Part shown: piece by piece, positions 4,623 to 55,065 of the stretch | Numbering within the stretch: position 1 is the stretch's first letter | Layout: each line of letters opens with the position of its first letter | NCBI RefSeq assembly: GCF_032854445.1 | Contig: NC_088303.1 | Coordinates: 2,983,501-3,047,500 of the forward strand | Reading direction: 5' to 3' | Length of the DNA stretch: 64,000 nucleotides | DNA from: Liolophura sinensis | Taxonomy: Eukaryota > Mollusca > Polyplacophora > Chitonida > Chitonidae | The notes under the pieces: generated by a model | Seen by the model: the letters and a program-made list of their open reading frames with translations, nothing else | Told to the model about the DNA's origin: nothing | Database searches by the model: none | Position numbers and translations under genes: made by a program

Positions 4623-7600
4623 TTACTTGTAGGTCCACATTGTCACAGACTTCACCTTGCATGGCCGCCTCGTCTCCTTCCACGTCGGGTACCACTGCTC
4701 CTTCGCCGCCCAGAACTTCTCCATGGCTTTTTGTTTGTCCGTCACTGTTTAGCCAGGCTTGGGATAAGGTGTGTTTCTGGCTTTGTCTTGGAACCAGCCT
4801 TTGGTACTACCCACAGCCACGTTTAGAATCATGTAAAACTGAAAAATGTAGATGGACTGAGAGAATATAGTGTAGATCGGACAAGTGGTAACAAAAGCTA
4901 TCCTAGGGCTTAGAAACTTATTTCTGTCAAATATCAATTTGCACGTTTGCATACAACAGAAAAAAATAAACAGTTATGTGTTCAGCTATGGGCTCGGTGT
5001 TTTCTTTTCACAGAATTGTCATAACAGGTGAAAATGACAGAATGACACAATGTATTTTACAGACTATAGAACTGTTGGCATTTTCCTTGGGTTGAGAAGC
5101 TACCTTTAGAACAAGCTCAAATTTACGATAGGCTGCAACATGCTGTGTAAAAGGGTCGATGTTGCCTTGAACTTGGGTACCTCTTCAGCAATAGCCCATG
5201 TGAAAGGTCAGGATGTCAGCAAATTCGACCAGCGGTCCAACAGACAGGCAGGGAGAGTGACTTACAACGGTCCATGTGAAAGGTCAGGATGTCAGCAATT
5301 CGGCCAGTGCACCAGCAAACAGGCAGGGAGAGTGACTTACAACAGCCCATGTGAAAGGTCAGGATGTCAGCAATTCGACAAGTGGACCAGCAAACAGGCA
5401 GGGAGAGTGACTTACAACAGCTCATGTGAAAGGTCAGGATGTCAGCAATTCCACCAGTGGACAAGCAGACAGGCAGAGAGGGTGACTTACAACAGCCCAT
5501 TTGAAAGGTCAGAATGTCAGCAATTCGACAAGTGGACCAGCAGATAGGCAGGGAGAGTGACTTACAACAGCCCATGTGAAAGGTCAGATGCCAGCAATTC
5601 CACCAGTGCACCAGCAGACAGGCAGAGAGGGTGACTTACAATAGCCTAAGTGAAAGGATAGGATGTCAAAATAACAAGGAAATAAACATCTAACCAATTC
5701 ATTTAAACCAGCAAAAAAGATCTCCAAAACTTTATACTATATAAACGAAAGCTACACAGCAAAAATTAAAATTTTCTTAATTCGATAATTTTCGACTGGT
5801 GGATGATTATCGTGGATTACTTGTTTGTCGAATGGAGCGTCCTTCCCGCCATGAGTGTAGATGCTGTTCCCTTGGAGATAATGGTGGAAATATCCGTCAG
5901 GTGGCGTAGTGGCGTTCAGTATCATGCGATCATCAATAGAAATACTGAAATATTAAGGTATAACAGTAAGTGCTGCATAGAATTGAACACAATTACACAG
6001 TTTTCCACCGAATCCTTTACTATAAACATTTTTCACAGGCCTAAGTTAGCGTGCCTATTAGGTGTATGTTTGTGGGCGTGGGGACGGCTCTATGGAGCAC
6101 TCTCTGACACGTTTTATATGTGAGTGGAATGAGTCGGACTCCGTTATAACGGCGGGAATTTAGAGGAGAGACAACCCGTAAACATGATTAATTTCTTCTT
6201 TCAAAACTTTTGTTGGTAATAGAAGCTAACTGCATCTTGCGGTAAACTGTAAATTAGCATTATTTCTAAGTAAATTAAGAGAGTTCATCTGACTCAGTGA
6301 AAGGATTTAAATTTATACTCAAATGTACATCAAACTGAGGATGTTTGTGGGTTTCCTTCCGGCTCTGCGTGGCAATTTTCTCCACCACCACCACCCCCCC
6401 CCCCCCCTTCCTCCTTCCACCAATACCGACCTTCATATAAATGAATATCTTTGAGCACGGTGTTAACACCGATGAAACAAATAAATAAATCACAGATATT
6501 TCTGTTACCTACTAGATGTGAGAAGCGGTCCAGTCCATGACAAATTTGTGGAAGTCTCTGGCATAGGAGTGGCCATTCCAGCTAACACAGTAAAATGAAC
6601 ACGTGACAGAGGTTAGCAACTCTTGATCATTAACATGTAGCCTACAACTTTACATAAGTGTGGTATATGGTAATCACTTCTGTCTTGTTCAGCTAGAAGG
6701 AACGACCGAACTAAAATGGCTACCTGAACGTATGAGAAATGATGTGAACGCTTCCTGGCTTTTCCAGATGTACAGATAAAAAGGAGAAGAGACCATTTTG
6801 TAAACATTACAAGACTAAAGATATATGACATTAGACAGGAATTTCTGAAAATCTCGCCAGTAAAAACATCTGACAAAACAGAAAAACTCCAAACTTTACG
6901 GTAATGGCATATGACAAAATAGAAGACATTCTGAATAAGAGTTGTAAATGCATTTAATAGAGAGCGCATAAAAACTTAGATTCCCAGTTGTAAGTACACA
7001 GAGTCACGCAACTGATCAATTTTTGACAACAATGGCTGTGTGTTTGTGACCTGACCACGATGGCTGTGTGTTCTGACGACAATGACTGTGTGTTCTGTGA
7101 TCTGACGACAATGACTGTTTGTTCTGTGATCTGACAACAACGGCTATGTCTTCTGTGATCCGACGATAATGGCTGTGTGTTCTGTGATCTGAAGACAATG
7201 GCAACGTGTTCTGTGATCTGACGACAATGGCAATCGTGTTCTGTGATCTGACGACAATGGGTATGTGTTCTGTGATCCGACGATAATGGCTATATATTCT
7301 GCGATCTGACGACAACGGCTATGTGTTCTGTGATCCGACGACAATGGCTGTGTGTTCTGTGATCTGAAGACAATGGCAACGTGTTCTGTGATCTGACGAC
7401 AATGGGTATGTGTTCTGTGATCCGACGATAATGGCTGTGTGTTCTGTGATCCGACGACAATGGTTGTGTGTTCTGTGATGTAACGACAATGGCTATGTCT
7501 TCTGTGATCTGACGACAACGGCTATGTGTTCTGTGATCTGACGACAATGCCTATGTATTCTGTGATCTGACGACAACGGCTATGTATTCTGTGATCTGAC

Positions 7601-14078: not shown

Positions 14079-17000
14079 TCACTTCCTAAACTTCCTCTTC
14101 TTTTTAGCAAACTGTTTATGTGATTTTTGTTGTTGTTGCTGCTGCCATTTTCCGTTAGGCCTGTTCCTATTCCCACTGGCCTTGTTCCACTTTCCTCCCG
14201 AATTCTTGTCATCCAGTTTCTTGGTCTTCACTGTGAACTTATCACCGATATCAAACGCAGAATCTTCTTCATACTTGAAATAAATAACATGAATTATCAT
14301 TAAACAAGATAACTTTCAACTAAACTCTGCCCTTTCACTATTCCATGTTGCTAGGCAACTCAAAGACTAAAGGTCAAAAGTTATGTTCTTCCACAATTGA
14401 AATGGTCCACTTTCAGGAAATGTTGAAAATCAGTTTTTCATAAAAAGAAATGAGAAATTTAATGTATGAAGTAAGCCTTGAAATCAACCCTAGCATTCAT
14501 TCAACTCATCCAAAAAGTCTCCTACAGGCTTTATTATCTGTGGTGACAGTAAATGATGCAATTCCACATTAAGCCAGAAGCACTAAAACAGAATAAATCA
14601 AACCCTTAGATTTGATTGATTTATTTATTTCATTGGTGTTTTACGCCAAACTCAAGAATATCTGAGAGATGATGGAGCACTGTGGAGGGAGGAGACCAGA
14701 CAGAGCCCAAGGGAAGTCCACAGCCATCTTCCTATTATCTTTGTACAACAATGTAAAGCTGATTCAACCATCACGATAATTACTGTTAATTAGTAAATCC
14801 TGTTAAAAAACTTTTTTCTGTATGGTGAGTTTTATGCTGCCAGTTCAACACATACCCTTATTCATTTCATGGGGATCTAATTTCAGTAGACTGCATATTT
14901 CAGTCAATGTATAGGATCTAAATGCTGTCCAGGACTAAATGTAAGTTATTCATGTTGTTTAATTCCAAGAGTTCCATTGCTCTTAGAAAGCCACTGATTT
15001 GAATGGTGATTTGGAAGGCTGCATTTTATTCTATGGGGAAAATGTAACTTTTAGCACCTAATTCATTATTTTCTGTTCTTTATTTCCTTTTATTTAAAAA
15101 CAACCTTTTAGGACAAGTACACTAATCAATGTCGATCCACTTTATTGTTGGAGGAGACCATGATTAGAAAACAGTGCCCTTTGTCAGTTACAAACCTCCT
15201 GACTCACAAATCACAGCTAAGCCAGAAGGAGCTAGATACCAGCATACAGCCTCACCGGTCAAGGGCAGATATCTGCTATAGGAGCAATGCTTTAGTCTAG
15301 CTTGCCATCAACTGCAATATATCTCACTCTTTGATCAAGACACCATAAAATATCTTAAGTGTCCTTTGTTTGCAGCAAAGAAGTAAATGTTAGCCTCTAA
15401 GTAGCTGCAATGCAGAGTCCAAATTGCTTTATCTCAACCCATACCTGGTCAGTGACCCTCAGTGATGTACTTCCACTTCCTTTTTCTTTCTGGTGTTTTT
15501 TGGGGCCAGGGCCTGAAAAAACCAAAAATATTTCATAATATTTTTTTTTCTCTGTCCAATGTCTAACCTAATAATAAAAAAAGTCTCAACTAAACAAGAA
15601 CACATTTAAGTTCCTAAGGACAACTGAACAATTTTACACACAAAAAACATTTTCTCTCCAATCAGGCATTTGTTTGTAAATGACAGAAATCTTGTGATTT
15701 TTACTTTTTAGACTAAGACCATTATCCTTTCTATATTCACAAACACGTACGAGATTCTTGCAACAGGTCTTCAAACATTTTGCGTTTTTTTTATCTTTGC
15801 TCCTTGAAGTTCTCGCCAATCCTTCCGTCTATGAATGAAATGATAAATGGCAAAGTTCCGATGCATGAATCTGCCAAACTGGTCGCCTTGCAACTTGGAC
15901 TCGTGTTTCGAGAGTTCTTCTGCCAGGCCAGTCTTCTGTTTCAGAGATGAGCAGTCCCATATCGTCTGTAATGCCCGACTGCCATTCTTACTGCACGCCA
16001 ACTCCAGGTAACAGCCCTGCGTAAATAAGACCATCATGTTGACAGAAACTTGAAAGTACATTTCAAAATGTCTGTGAAATAAAACTATAATCTTTTCACA
16101 TGATATGCAGGCTGTATGACATGCTGGTCAAAGACATACTGTATTATCCACATCACAAACAAAACAGAAAACATACCTTCAGCCTCTGTATCACCTGTGT
16201 TATTTAGATCTTACCTAGCCGCACATCAAACATAAACCGGAAAACGTACCTTCAGCCTCTGTATAACCTGTGTTATTCAGATCTTACCTAGCCGCACATC
16301 AAACATAAACCGGAAAACGTACCTTCAGCCTCTGTATCATCTGTGTTATCCAGATCTTACCTAGCCGCACATCAAACATAAACTGGAAAACGTACCTTCA
16401 GCCTCTGTATCACCTGTGTTATCCAGATCTTACCTAGCCGCACATCAAACATAAACCGGAAAACATACCTTCAGCCTCTGTATAACCTGTGTTATCCAGA
16501 TCTTACCTAGCCGCACATTAAACATAAACCGGAAAACATACCTTCAGCCTCTGTATAACCTGTGTTATCCAGATCTTACCTAGCCGCACATTAAACATAA
16601 ACCGGAAAACGTACCTTCAGCCTCTGTATAACCTGTGTTATTCAGATCTTACCTAGCCGCACATCAAACACAAACTGGAAAACGTACCTTCAGCCTCTGT
16701 ATAACCTGTGTTATTCAGATCTTACCTAGCCGCACATCAAACACAAACTGGAAAACGTACCTTCAGCCTCTGTATCATCTGTGTTATCCAGATCTTACCT
16801 AGCCGCACATCACAAACAAAACAGAAAACGTACCTTCAGCCTCTGTATAACCTGTGTTATTCAGATCTTACCTAGCCGCACATCAAACACAAACTGGAAA
16901 ACATACCTTCAGCCTCTGTATAACCTGTGTTATTCAGATCTTACCTAGCCGCACATCAAACACAAACTGGAAAACGTACCTTCAGCCTCTGTATAACCTG

Positions 17001-20000
17001 TGTTATTCAGATCTTACCTAGCCGCACATCAAACACAAACTGGAAAACGTACCTTCAGCCTCTGTATCATCTGTGTTATCCAGATCTTACCTAGCCGCAC
17101 ATCAAACATAAACCGGAAAACGTACCTTCAGCCTCTGTATCACCTGTGTTATCCAGATCTTACCTAGCCGCACATCAAACATAAACCGGAAAACGTATCT
17201 TCAGCCTCTGTATAATCTGTGTTATCCAGATCTTACCTAGCCGCACATCAAACATAAACCGGAAAACGTACCTTCAGCCTCTGTATCATCTGTGTTATCC
17301 AGATCTTACCTAGCCGCACATCAAACATAAACTGGAAAACGTACCTTCAGCCTCTGTATCATCTGTGTTATTCAGATCTTACCTAGCCGCACATCACAAA
17401 CAAAACAGAAAGCATACCTTCAGTCTCTGTATCATCTGCTCTTTGCAATTGCCAGAGACACTGGAGCTCTTGTAGAAAGTGTCCACAATGTGGCTGCCGC
17501 AGGGGTTACAGGCCAGCTGTACTAACTGTACAGGGTCTAAACTTAGCAGGCTGTCCACTGCGGGACTGGGGTCCTCGAACCGTAACATATGTTGGAGGAT
17601 CACTGAGCCGTGCAAGTTCACCTGGCTCAGGGGTGGCTTCAACGGTGCTGGCTGAATAGAAAATCCAACAATTACATCAAAGCTCAGACACACACATCTG
17701 TACTGTACTAACAGCTCAATTTATTTATTTATTTAAGTCAAGAGTTTTTTCCCTTTATTTCAAACCTAAAGGCGTTCAGTTGCAGGGTGGATGAAACTGA
17801 CCGGGTAACCAACTCATCTATGTCAAGTTACTGAGCATACTCGTGGAAGGCAAGTGGTTCTCAACAAACCTTAGCCTGTACAGACTCGACAAACAGCCAC
17901 TATCACCTTTGTCTGCCCACTGTCACACATGGTGACAGAAAGGCCACAGACTGAGTGCGGGCAGCGGAATCTACAAATTCCCTGGCAGTGGGTCCATCAC
18001 CTCAATAATGGCAGTAGCATAGCTGCACACCACTTCATAGCCACATAGCAGTACACTCTTCTGAACTAAAACCTCAAAATGAATTCAAAACCCATCTATT
18101 CAACTGCCACTTGGACACAATTTATTTGATTGAATGCTTAATGACATATCACATACTTTAACTTTTACAACAGAAATACACTGATCCCTCGAAATTACGC
18201 GGATTGATTTACGGTGAAATCATAATTTACAGGATAGTGTGGAGTCCCTCGTTTTTTCTTTTTTCTGTTCCAGTATCAAAATATTCACAGGAAAAAGGGC
18301 AAAATTGTTGTGACAAGTACGTCTTTAGGCATCACTTTTGGCCAGATTTGAGTGTATATGGAGTTTTTATTAATGTAAATTCGTATTACCATAAATAAAG
18401 ACTGCGCTGATAATCGTAATCCTATTGTACGTAGGTAAACAAAGAAACATGCTCGAGCCAGAGTCGATGAACAAACGTGATTTCAGCTGACACGCTTCCC
18501 TTGACCCCAAGTTGTTTATTTTTATTTTCTAAAGCTGGAAGATCCATTGATGAAATCTAACATGTTGCCCATGTCTTTGGTAATCTGGTGGCTCGACATT
18601 CTGCGAAAAATTAAGTATTCTCTTGGTATGTGGCACTCTCCGTTTGGTGTATTTAGCGTACAGTATATTTGCTGAACACTGAATGGTGGAGAGTTAGTCA
18701 GCGCAGACAAAAACTGTGAATCTCTTTATAGTTTAGGTTTCTTTCAAATTGCCATGACTCTCACCTGCCTGAGCAGTGGGAATTTGAATGAAGGACGTTA
18801 TCAATCTGTTCAACTGCTACGTAAATAAATATGGAAATATATGTATTTTGCAGTAACCTTTGCTCGACCTACAATGACTTGACAAAAGTCCGCCTTTGTG
18901 TTTATTTTGACTGACTGATTTGTTGTCACCAGTCCAGTGATATAACAATGTGTCGCCACCATCTTTGATTTCTTACACATTGTCAAGGCAGATAAATTTC
19001 TGTTCTCTTAAAAATACATTATTCCATAAAAAACCCCAAAGAATTCTTGATATACCCTTGTCATGCAGGTGTAAAGTTCACCTTTCTTGAAGATAACAGG
19101 CCTGGATCTCGATTCATGGATAAAGCAATCAATTCAGTAATGTTAGGCTCGGTAAATCAGTTTAGGCCTACAAGTACTGGTGACAATGTTCCATTATTTC
19201 AAGACTTTATAGTGAGACATGCAATAGTTTTTATAATTGGTACTGTTTTATTACATCGGGTATGGTAAATGGCCTAAAGTTTCGCACCTGAGTTACTGTC
19301 GTTTACTTTCGCACAATTTCAGTTGAAGGCAAGATAACAAAAGAGAGTGACCAGTTGCCCGCTAAGAGCCCTCATCATGCGATGAATAAGTCTACAAATG
19401 TATATTAGCTAAAAACGAATTTCACCAAGAAATATCTGTCATCAGCTTCCTGTGCCCATGTCAATCTACTCGCACATTTTGTTTCTCTACAGTTGGAACT
19501 GTCCTCCTATTGCAGGCGATTCCTTTCCCATGTTTTTATATCAGGAACCTCCATCAAACACAGGAAACGTACCCCAAGAGAGGTTTCCGCCAGTGACACA
19601 TAAGATCACTGTCCTGCCTTTCAAAATCACGTGATTGATGGGCAGACACGTGGAAATTTTGAGTTCTTTTGATTGTAAGTGACTTGTATCTACATGTAGA
19701 TAAAACCAATCCGTATAATTAAAATTTCATCTGAGAGGACTCAATTAAAAATTACGTAAATTAAGTATTCTTGATTATGAATGATGGGCGGTAGTTGACA
19801 GTCTTTCAAATTAACAACGAATAAGAAATGTTTAGTTGCAGCAGTGCAAATCCACGTGTGCAGGTGTCGCTTTGATCGCAATTTGACATCTTCATCTCAT
19901 CTGCTGGTAGGGCTAGTTAGCAAGTATGGATTTGCAGTATGCTAAATTCTGCTACAGCTTTGTATACAGAGAGCCCTGCAGTTTAAAAACAGATATTTGA

Positions 20001-23000
20001 CAAGACACTCCATATGTGTAAAGGTAATGGGTAGATACACTAAATCTCTACAAAATTTTGGAGATTTTTCTCCCAAATTCCCATTTATCTCACCATAGCA
20101 ATAATAAAACAATCAACCTGTTGCGAAATGCATGTACTAAAATCATTATGATTAAAACTGAGGAAAACATGAACTGTTGTTGGTAGGAGCATAGACTAAC
20201 TGCTCAGTGAAACGTGAACTGTTGTTGGTAGGAGCATAGACTAACTGCTCAGTGAAGCATGAACTGTTGTTGGTAGGAGCATAGACTAACTGCTCAGTGA
20301 AACGTGAAATGTAGTTTGTAGGAGCACAGACTAATTGCTCAGTGAAGTGTGAGCTGTTGATGGTAGGAGCATAGACTAACTGCTCAGTGACACCTGAACT
20401 GCTGTTGGTAGGAGCATAGACTAACTGCTCAGTGAAGCATGAACTGTTGTTGGTAGGAGCATAGACTAACTGCTCAGTGAAGCGTGAGCTGTTGATGGTA
20501 GGAGCATAGACTAACTGCTCAGTGATACGTGAACTGTTGTTGGTAGGAGCATAGACTAACTGCTCAGTGACACCTGAACTGCTGTTGGTAGGAGTATAGA
20601 CTAACTGTTCAGTGAAGCATGAACTGTTGTTGGTAGGAGCATAGACTAACTGCTCAGTGAAGCGTGAGCTGTTGATGGTAGGAGCATAGACTAACTGCTC
20701 AGTGAAGCATGAACTGTTGGTGGTAGGAGCATAAACTAACTGTTCAGTGAAGCATGAACTGTTGTTGGTAGGAGCATAGCCTAACTGCTCAGTGAAGCGT
20801 GAACTGTTGATGGTATGAGCATAGACTAACTGCTCAGTGAAGCGTGAACTGTTAATGGTAGGAGCATAGACTAACTGCTCAGTGAAGTGGAAGCTTGTTT
20901 ATTACATTTTTGAACTGTCAGTATAATCCCCAGAACAACCCTGATGCTATCCTGCGGCACTCAGTAACAACCACAAACAACACAATGAATCCTGGGATAC
21001 ACTTTCTGAGTTCCACGGCAAAACATTTAGGACATTTACCATAACTCAATCAACACAAGTACCTCAAATTCTTGTCAGTAACATTTCGATTTCTGCTTAT
21101 TCCAGCCATTACAAATTATCTCCCTTGTCAGGATTTAATTTTGCGTGGACTGGATTATAACATGGTATGAATCTTTTGCGTCCAAATGAGTGGGATATTT
21201 CCACGAAACAGTGTATGTCTAATTGAAAACAATGACACACCTTTAAAATATCTGATACTACGCCTGGTGGGATTTTTTATGGTAAGTGACCACGTGTGTT
21301 TCTTCACCTTACCTTTTCAATACTGGATTCTGACATTTTCCCACCTTTTGGGCTGTCTGTATTATAAAGCACTTCATATGTGGAGAGTGAGGAGAGAAGA
21401 GGTACAATTGATTTTCGCCTTTCCTCTGGTTTATAACAATGAAAAGCTTTCTGAAGGTGCTGTCAAAATACAAAAGAGTAAAATACACACAAACATTTCT
21501 CTTTGTGAATGCAAAACGAAGAAATTTTAATTATTTATTTGATTGAAAAATACTTCACTTATACAACTGCTGCCAGCATTATGGCAGGAGGAAACCAAAG
21601 CTAAGAAATATTTACTATGATTAAATAACTGGACTGTTAATGAACTGAATGTTTAAACTTGAATCAGGACTAAACTGTAACCATGGAAATACAATGAACT
21701 GAACAGTGTTCAAGACAGAAGTCAAGATTTTTTCGTTTTTTTGACACCCAGGTTCTCGATAAATTTATTTATTTACTTGATTTGTGTTTTACGCCAAAAT
21801 CAAGAATATTTCATTAATATTAATGGCAGACATTGCCATGTTCAGACAGTAAGCCAAGAGCTGGACTCAAACTCACAGTGACCACATTGGTGAGAGGCTC
21901 TTGCGTCAGTATGCTGCAGTAGCAAACAGTTGAAGCTCCTCGCTCTGAACAAATTAAATGTACATGTAATTCAATAGTGGAACCTAACGCGCATGTGTGT
22001 CTCTGAACTTTGGATCATTGACTCCCTTCTCATTTCCTACAAGTATGGCAGGCGAAGTAATGAGAACTGATGCTCTGTCTCATGGGTCACTGCTGTTTAG
22101 TATAGCTCAATGAATCTTTACTAAAACATCATCAAGATTTTTTCTTTCCTGTGAAATACATTTTTACCTTCACAAATTTGTCCTGACAACACGCCAATCG
22201 TTGGCAAGTTTCTGCCACTTTGCTAATCACCCCCAAATGATGAATAGCTAAGATGTCTTCAATATGATGAGACAATTCCTTGAATAAAACCTTAAACTGA
22301 AACAAAGAAAACATGTTTGCGCATTCTCTACACAACTTCAAACAAGGCCATTATAAAGTAAACAAAAAATACAGAAAAATTTAATAACGTTTCACTTAAA
22401 CAGTTCTCTGTGTGCGAATGAGATGAAAAAACAAATCAACCAGATTTTTCTGTTTCACAAAAACTGAAGATACTGTAATGCTGCAATCTGAGTATAATGG
22501 AATCTAGTTCCAAATCAAAGCAACATTTTCTCACTTGATTCAATCCAAATTTGGATGACATTCCAAATGCACTTAGTGTAAATGTTTTTGATGAACTTAA
22601 GAACAGTCCACAGTACAAAGTAGATGTGATCAGCATAATCTCTCATATATCAGCTGACAGCATATCAAATTTTCATTAGAAATCCCCTTTTATCATTAAC
22701 ATGTAAAATTCTAAATCAGACACAGGTCACAGTACTGTTTGGCTTAATCCATATAACATAAATCCTACAATGCACGGAAATGGCTGGTAAACATTATCAA
22801 AATATTTACTACTGTGATCATGTATCTTTCTGAAGTAATGAAGAAAAAATGTTTTTTAGACTGAAAAAAAAAAAACAAAAAGAAAAAACAAAACAGAACA
22901 AGATCTGCTACCTGATTGGAATCCTTAATAGTGGTAAAGACTTTCTGAAGAACAAAGTTGGCCTGTGGGTCAACGGCAAAGAGAAGAGCTTTGCCCTGAA

Positions 23001-27324: not shown

Positions 27325-55065
<27,741 letters not shown>

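Follow-up and report, generated by a model that had tools for sequence, protein, structure and literature searches.

Results

The NOP9 exon-donor array

The DNA analysed here (the window) is a 64,000-nt stretch of the genome of the chiton Liolophura sinensis (NC_088303.1), and the element in question is a minisatellite on the minus strand of the window, within an intron of the NOP9 gene. The family PF22493 (NOP9) is matched on either side of this intron, and another exon of the gene resembles solved NOP9 structures. The features of the locus are given below, with a slash marking the exon-intron boundary.

17418..17652, minus strand: NOP9 founder exon, 235 bp, matching PF22493 positions 393-463
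17412..17420, minus strand: authentic NOP9 donor AAG/GTATGC, last exon base 17418; splicing there preserves the NOP9 frame
16017..17417, minus strand: NOP9 intron, 1401 bp, phase 0
16149..17417, minus strand: 17 further exon-donor copies, period 73, last unit shortened (Tandem Repeats Finder, unit splitting)
17376..17386, minus strand: first copy of a second donor-like site, CTAG/GTAAGAT, which recurs in all units except the last
15771..16016, minus strand: last NOP9 exon with stop codon, matching PF22493 positions 460-514 (open reading frame 15771-16127)

Tandem Repeats Finder (TRF) placed the array at 16149-17432, with a period of 73, 17.6 copies and a 94% match; the first-pass annotation of this DNA had given 16165-17450, the low end of which was replaced accordingly. 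Splitting at the exon tail yielded 18 junction copies on the minus strand, including the real exon end at 17435, and all 17 spacings between them are exactly 73 bp. Each unit consists of the last 18 exon bases followed by 55 bp of intron-like sequence, spanning the exon-intron boundary. The founder exon (17652-17418) terminates in ATGATACAGAGACTGAAG/GTATGC, its last 18 bases being the repeat start, and its donor CTGAAG/GTATGC has the GT at 17417-17416. Among the 17 further copies the donor reads AAG/GTACGT in 12, AAG/GTATGT in 4 and AAG/ATACGT in 1, and the GT is kept in 16 of 17. The motif AACACAG directly precedes the exon-like 18 bases in every one of these copies. The 18-mers are free of stops and, over the 18 copies including the exon, encode VIQRLK (11), MIQRLK (6) or IIQRLK (1). 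The array (17417-16149) takes up about 91% of the intron. These results bear out what was claimed at first pass, namely that the units copy the exon end with its donor, that the true donor lies at 17417 and is followed by 17 near-copies, all but one with an intact GT, that AACACAG stands ahead of the exon-like bases, and that the array nearly fills the intron. The claim of a second donor in each unit needed trimming: TAG/GTAAGA, whose GT lies 35 bp inside the intron, is present in 17 of the 18 junction copies, the exception being the last, which is short by 17 bp at that position.

The inner units are 89-100% alike (mean 95%) and are thus homogenised, while the boundary units are set apart. 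Of 46 columns, 43 are identical between the first unit and the last, whereas the first shares 35-38 columns with 15 of the 16 inner units and 41 with the remaining one. A DNA search across the single haploid assembly returned 8 matches among the best candidates scored, all of them inside the NOP9 array itself (contig C9). Because the NOP9 exon end sits in the conserved domain PF22493, the direction of copying is read as from exon to array; the sequence thus supports the proposal that the minisatellite grew out of the NOP9 exon-donor junction.

A separate 45 bp array at window positions 20152-20898 (minus strand), probably in a NOP9 intron, is open as a 248-residue frame; with a unit length divisible by three, this is perhaps due to chance.

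A second exon-donor array in AFG3L2

The window contains a second array of this kind at 47442-47761, with a period of 52 (TRF), growing from an exon of AFG3L2. The founder exon was assigned by phmmer to 6nyy (AFG3-like protein 2; E 1.4e-11) and by tblastn at 77% identity.

47373..47483, plus strand: AFG3L2 exon founding the second exon-donor array (phmmer, tblastn)
47484..47761, plus strand: 52 bp units, 5 further copies of the exon end plus CAG/GTAGGT, all with GT

CAG/GTAGGT is kept in 5/5 further copies, and four later units still gave weak tblastn matches to the same protein end (E 0.38 to 5.7), one of them with a stop. The AFG3L2 exon ends used here are approximate, at least two being set one base too far (47484 for 47483 and 43227 for 43226), and they entered the array-shift test, the near-copy scan and the intron-size comparison in this form.

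Two further arrays in AFG3L2 introns lie near splice sites (window 43265-43790 and 48213-49357), one starting 38 bases past an exon and the other stopping 27 bases before the next exon. Another AFG3L2 intron holds a 261-residue open frame (window 46082-46864, minus strand) with the look of a Tc1/mariner-type transposase, as named by eye.

Exon-donor arrays in chaperonin and myosin genes

The frequency of such arrays was estimated in a sample of two gene families, comprising 47 of the 50 chaperonin matches and 59 of the 81 myosin matches listed (for myosin, 65 of 213 candidates were scored). These 106 exon hits lie in 28 stretches totalling 197,824 bp. The hits were obtained with hidden Markov models (HMMs) and mark exons inexactly, and the two families are a non-random sample. 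Arrays were detected by combining self-BLAST, TRF edges and a near-copy scan, and were then read by eye. Donor-side arrays occur at 7 of the 106 exon hits (6.6%, 95% interval 2.7-13.1%) and carry 3 to about 17 copies each. They are as follows.

L009: one donor-side array, 109 bp units
L014: two donor-side arrays, 66/88 bp and 60 bp units
L025: two donor-side arrays, 66 bp and 31 bp units
L031: one donor-side array, about 140 bp units
L023: one donor-side array, 32 bp units with only about 9 exonic bases each; the weakest case

Thus a view of the array as peculiar to one NOP9 intron is not borne out, like arrays being found at AFG3L2 and at these seven exon hits. An acceptor-side array was seen at one of the 106 hits, in the myosin locus L032, where positions 956-1251 hold, in three copies with a period of 95, TTTTCAG and nearly 50 bases of exon, the last copy being the real exon start.

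Near-copies of the last 18 nt of an exon were found within 1.5 kb downstream for 9 of 93 exons, each with two or more copies; one of the nine is a boundary artefact, leaving 8. When exon tails and introns were deliberately mispaired in ten shuffles, a mean of 0.6 exons had at least one near-copy and 0.2 had at least two. Hence exon-tail copies downstream are present beyond chance. The corresponding acceptor-side scan found none among 91 exons, with L032 outside the scan because it is too near the locus edge. The artefact is an apparent array over an exon at L014 519-932, where the HMM hit extends beyond the exon into arrays of the intron. It was left out of the seven donor-side arrays and is included among the nine near-copy exons, and in the placement test below among the eight arrays with an upstream edge and the two with a downstream edge in an exon. 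A further candidate at L021 (5496 and 6592) was rejected, the repeat being two similar exons about 1 kb apart; these exons of a myosin head gene (5496-5600 and 6592-6687) are probably mutually exclusive.

Arrays of at least 80 bp account for 25% of the window sequence and for 16% of that in the sampled loci. In the repeat table of the chiton genome paper (PMC11068029), whose animal a later correction renames Liolophura sinensis (PMC12441733), the class of simple repeats, microsatellites and RNA makes up 0.08% and unclassified repeats 14.04%. Since the former is so small, tandem arrays of this size may be counted within the unclassified part. COX1 was matched seven times at a spacing of about 15.5 kb on a 108,685-base contig (C99), with one more match on C632; the mitochondrial genome is seemingly assembled head-to-tail on C99, which is probably an assembly product of the circular molecule. 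The gene order of these mitochondrial copies fits that of molluscs. Searches of the genome for the GFP family and for a fluorescent protein derived from lancelets gave no match, an outcome that by itself carries no weight on whether the host might be a lancelet.

Placement of arrays relative to exons

Placement was examined for 68 arrays of at least 80 bp and 127 exons, of which 106 are the sampled hits and 21 lie in the window, against 2000 random array shifts. No array covers a whole exon, compared with 12.0 expected, and 0 of the 2000 shifts gave so low a count; whole-exon arrays have most likely been removed. The upstream edge falls inside an exon for 8 arrays (7 without the artefact) against 5.3 expected (P 0.14). 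As this count is near expectation, donor-side overlap has roughly the frequency to be expected if it were invisible to selection, and special seeding at junctions is not required by the placement counts. The downstream edge falls inside an exon for 2 arrays, one of them touching the overrun L014 hit, against 4.6 expected. The remaining 58 of the 68 arrays touch no exon hit.

Strength of the copied donors and consequences of their use

U1 duplex energies were calculated for 19 donors picked by hand from NOP9 and AFG3L2, and a weight matrix was built from 17 of them. The true NOP9 donor, at -5.7, is the second weakest of the 19, while the energies of the NOP9 copies reach -6.4 and -6.8 and that of TAG/GTAAGA is -9.4. 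The weight matrix scored the true donor at 8.68, GTACGT at 6.38, GTATGT at 10.22 and TAG/GTAAGA at 9.80. Over eight arrays (L023 left out), 65 of 67 copies keep the GT and in 39 of 67 the pairing with U1 equals or exceeds that of the true donor, and the copied donors are thus mostly unpurged in these arrays. Three of 70 rows had been dropped, two as non-units (NOP9 +1596 and L014b +519) and one as a degraded copy at the array edge (L014a +853); the number keeping the GT is 65 also when all 70 rows are retained. Over all nine arrays the GT is kept in 73 of 84 copies.

Use of any NOP9 donor after the true one would bring in a TGA that lies in frame 21 nt inside the intron. Likewise, a stop lies ahead of the first copied donor in 7 of the 8 arrays checked. 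The exception is the chaperonin array L014a with its 66 bp units, whose reading frame stays open to +432 nt; decay of the message could therefore not hide the use of its first copies.

The first-pass annotation had also suggested that each unit could act as an 18-base micro-exon. The reading frame part of this suggestion stood: a micro-exon modelled from the second NOP9 copy adds MIQRLK in frame and most other copies would add VIQRLK, all without a stop. The splicing part fared worse, as it would need introns of 55 nt, compared with about 228 nt for the smallest of 14 AFG3L2 introns (approximate exon ends), and no clear pyrimidine tract was seen by eye ahead of AACACAG. Micro-exon use in NOP9 is therefore unlikely. 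Recursive splicing at CTAG/GTAAGAT was considered and set aside, the preceding bases being not clearly pyrimidine-rich by eye.

Discussion

Origin and persistence of the array

In the account that we favour, short tandem duplications would arise all over these chiton genes. In NOP9, the two ends of one such duplication, 18 bp within the exon and 55 bp within the intron, would have been joined at a common CAG. By inspection, the bases shared at the founder junction are CAG in NOP9 and AGTGGAAG in AFG3L2, which fits microhomology or slippage and proves neither. Later slippage or unequal exchange may then have expanded and homogenised the units. Duplicates of a junction would land downstream of the true donor, and splicing would keep to the first donor, which is the sole one joined to a whole exon and its acceptor and is also transcribed first. 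Exon definition and the priority of the first-transcribed donor are general principles of splice-site choice (cf. Reed and Maniatis 1986). The array would thus persist because its copies fall where splicing ignores them, and copies so ignored would be free to multiply and drift. Judged from its sequence, the NOP9 array is probably a functionless minisatellite whose downstream copies are passed over in favour of the first donor.

Several observations weigh against this account. The commonest NOP9 copy, GTACGT, scores below the true donor by weight matrix (6.38 against 8.68), and therefore strength alone might suffice to explain the neglect of GTACGT. By U1 pairing, the second NOP9 site, GTAAGA, outranks the true donor. 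In a minigene re-analysis, the rank of the donor hexamer is reported to account for 66% of the choices made among rival donors, and for 91% when their strengths were clearly unequal (PMC12480690). In the ninth array, L023, the GT survives in just 8 of 17 copies, and the donor of 13 of the 16 copies listed for L025b has GTC in place of GTG; either pattern could be selection against strong copied donors or a single variant spreading, and copies within one array are in any case non-independent. Finally, the low count of arrays with a downstream edge in an exon (P 0.15) and the asymmetry between donor-side and acceptor-side arrays (7 against 1, P 0.07) are both non-significant, and the latter is suggestive only.

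As an observation in its own right, the 31 bp array at L025 (minus strand, 3087 onward) has GTGAGT both at the exon's own donor and in the last copy; of the 15 copies listed between, 13 read GTCACT, GTCAGT or GTCAAT and 2 read GTTAGT. It looks as though a donor variant of reduced strength had spread across the array.

Alternative explanations

The copied donors might instead be used appreciably, with the faulty messages lost to nonsense-mediated decay, so that the array would lower or tune NOP9 output. The in-frame TGA at 21 nt, the presence of a stop before the first copied donor in 7 of 8 arrays, the U1 energy of TAG/GTAAGA (-9.4 against -5.7 for the true donor) and the reported power of hexamer rank to predict most minigene choices (PMC12480690) all speak for it. 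However, such stops occur at about the frequency expected by chance (about 6 of 8 by a rough hand estimate), use of the first L014a copies could not be cleaned up by decay when that array is open to +432 nt, and the comparable lancelet cases are reported to splice normally (PMC3087553, PMC3902484). We consider tuning by decay unlikely. A special mechanism seeding arrays at exon-donor junctions, such as one linked to transcription or R-loops, seems improbable: the count of arrays with an upstream edge in an exon is slightly above random (8 against 5.3), but the excess is non-significant (P 0.14), one of the eight is the boundary artefact, and 58 of 68 arrays lie away from any exon hit.

Two further explanations concern the exon-like 18 bases themselves. 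That they are spliced in as in-frame micro-exons of six residues each would agree with every 18-mer being open, in frame and preceded by AACACAG, but the 55-nt introns required, set beside the smallest AFG3L2 intron of about 228 nt, and the lack of a clear pyrimidine tract (by eye) make it very improbable. It is similarly hard to credit that the array is older and that the exon end took its similarity from the array. The 18 bases are common to exon and units, and similarity alone has no direction; however, the NOP9 exon end lies within the conserved PF22493, and the copied bases in AFG3L2, chaperonin and myosin likewise belong to exons matching conserved families. The preferred explanation hence remains a junction-derived minisatellite that splicing would ignore.

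Implications

There is about an even chance, in our estimation, that exon-donor arrays occur genome-wide in this chiton, at several percent of exons and perhaps in thousands of introns, with splicing nearly always taking the first donor. If true, position and exon context rather than donor strength would decide 5' splice-site choice, and the genome would amount to a large natural experiment on such choice and on intron growth. Competition between near-identical donors has so far been studied with engineered minigenes, and the chiton arrays would offer a natural test, by RNA-seq, of whether donor strength is outweighed by position and exon context.

Comparison with known systems

The closest known structures are the "mirages" of the lancelet, which are reported as minisatellite-like tandem duplications across exon-intron boundaries in Adh3, troponin C, the globins BflGb6 and BflGb9 and PGBD5, with units of 10 to about 160 bp (PMC3087553, PMC3902484). 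These mirages are reported not to disturb splicing, regular splicing having been found (PMC3087553, PMC3902484). The NOP9 array resembles them in its many copies with AG/GT signals and in boundary units exempt from homogenisation. It differs in its mollusc host and in having 17 further copies, as compared with 6 and 3 units in two globin haplotypes. The rate of several percent of exons in the chiton sample is a further difference, and the lancelet mirages were examined by RT-PCR (reverse transcription PCR), the chiton arrays at the level of DNA. Taken together, the array type, the span across the boundary and the homogenisation would place the NOP9 array with the mirage-type minisatellites.

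No mollusc case of a junction-derived array was recognised in the open-licence literature searched. In the chiton genome paper (PMC11068029), the term "tandem repeat" was not found in the main text, and PMC12005716 gave no match to this term or to "minisatellite". An intronic 27-bp minisatellite is reported from abalone, with no exon link named in the consulted portion of that paper (PMC6905558), and the portion of PMC8724738 dealing with U1 and exon enhancers held nothing bearing on duplicated donors. Thus the phylum and the rate are apparently new, while the kind of structure is already known.

The human gene IFI6 (6-16) carries a minisatellite of which two downstream repeat units are reported to be used as donors, giving different isoforms (PMC4526556). 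The NOP9 array is like it in being a minisatellite at an exon-donor junction that offers tandem donors, but use of the copies in NOP9 would give a premature stop rather than isoforms. The chiton arrays also recall a model by Rogers, taken up in PMC3087553, in which introns are gained through tandem duplication around AG/GT. With this model they share the starting step, a tandem duplication around a splice junction; unlike in that model, an existing intron is lengthened and no new intron is shown. If our reading of the chiton arrays is true, arrays of the mirage type would be no peculiarity of the lancelet and a possible common source of intron length.

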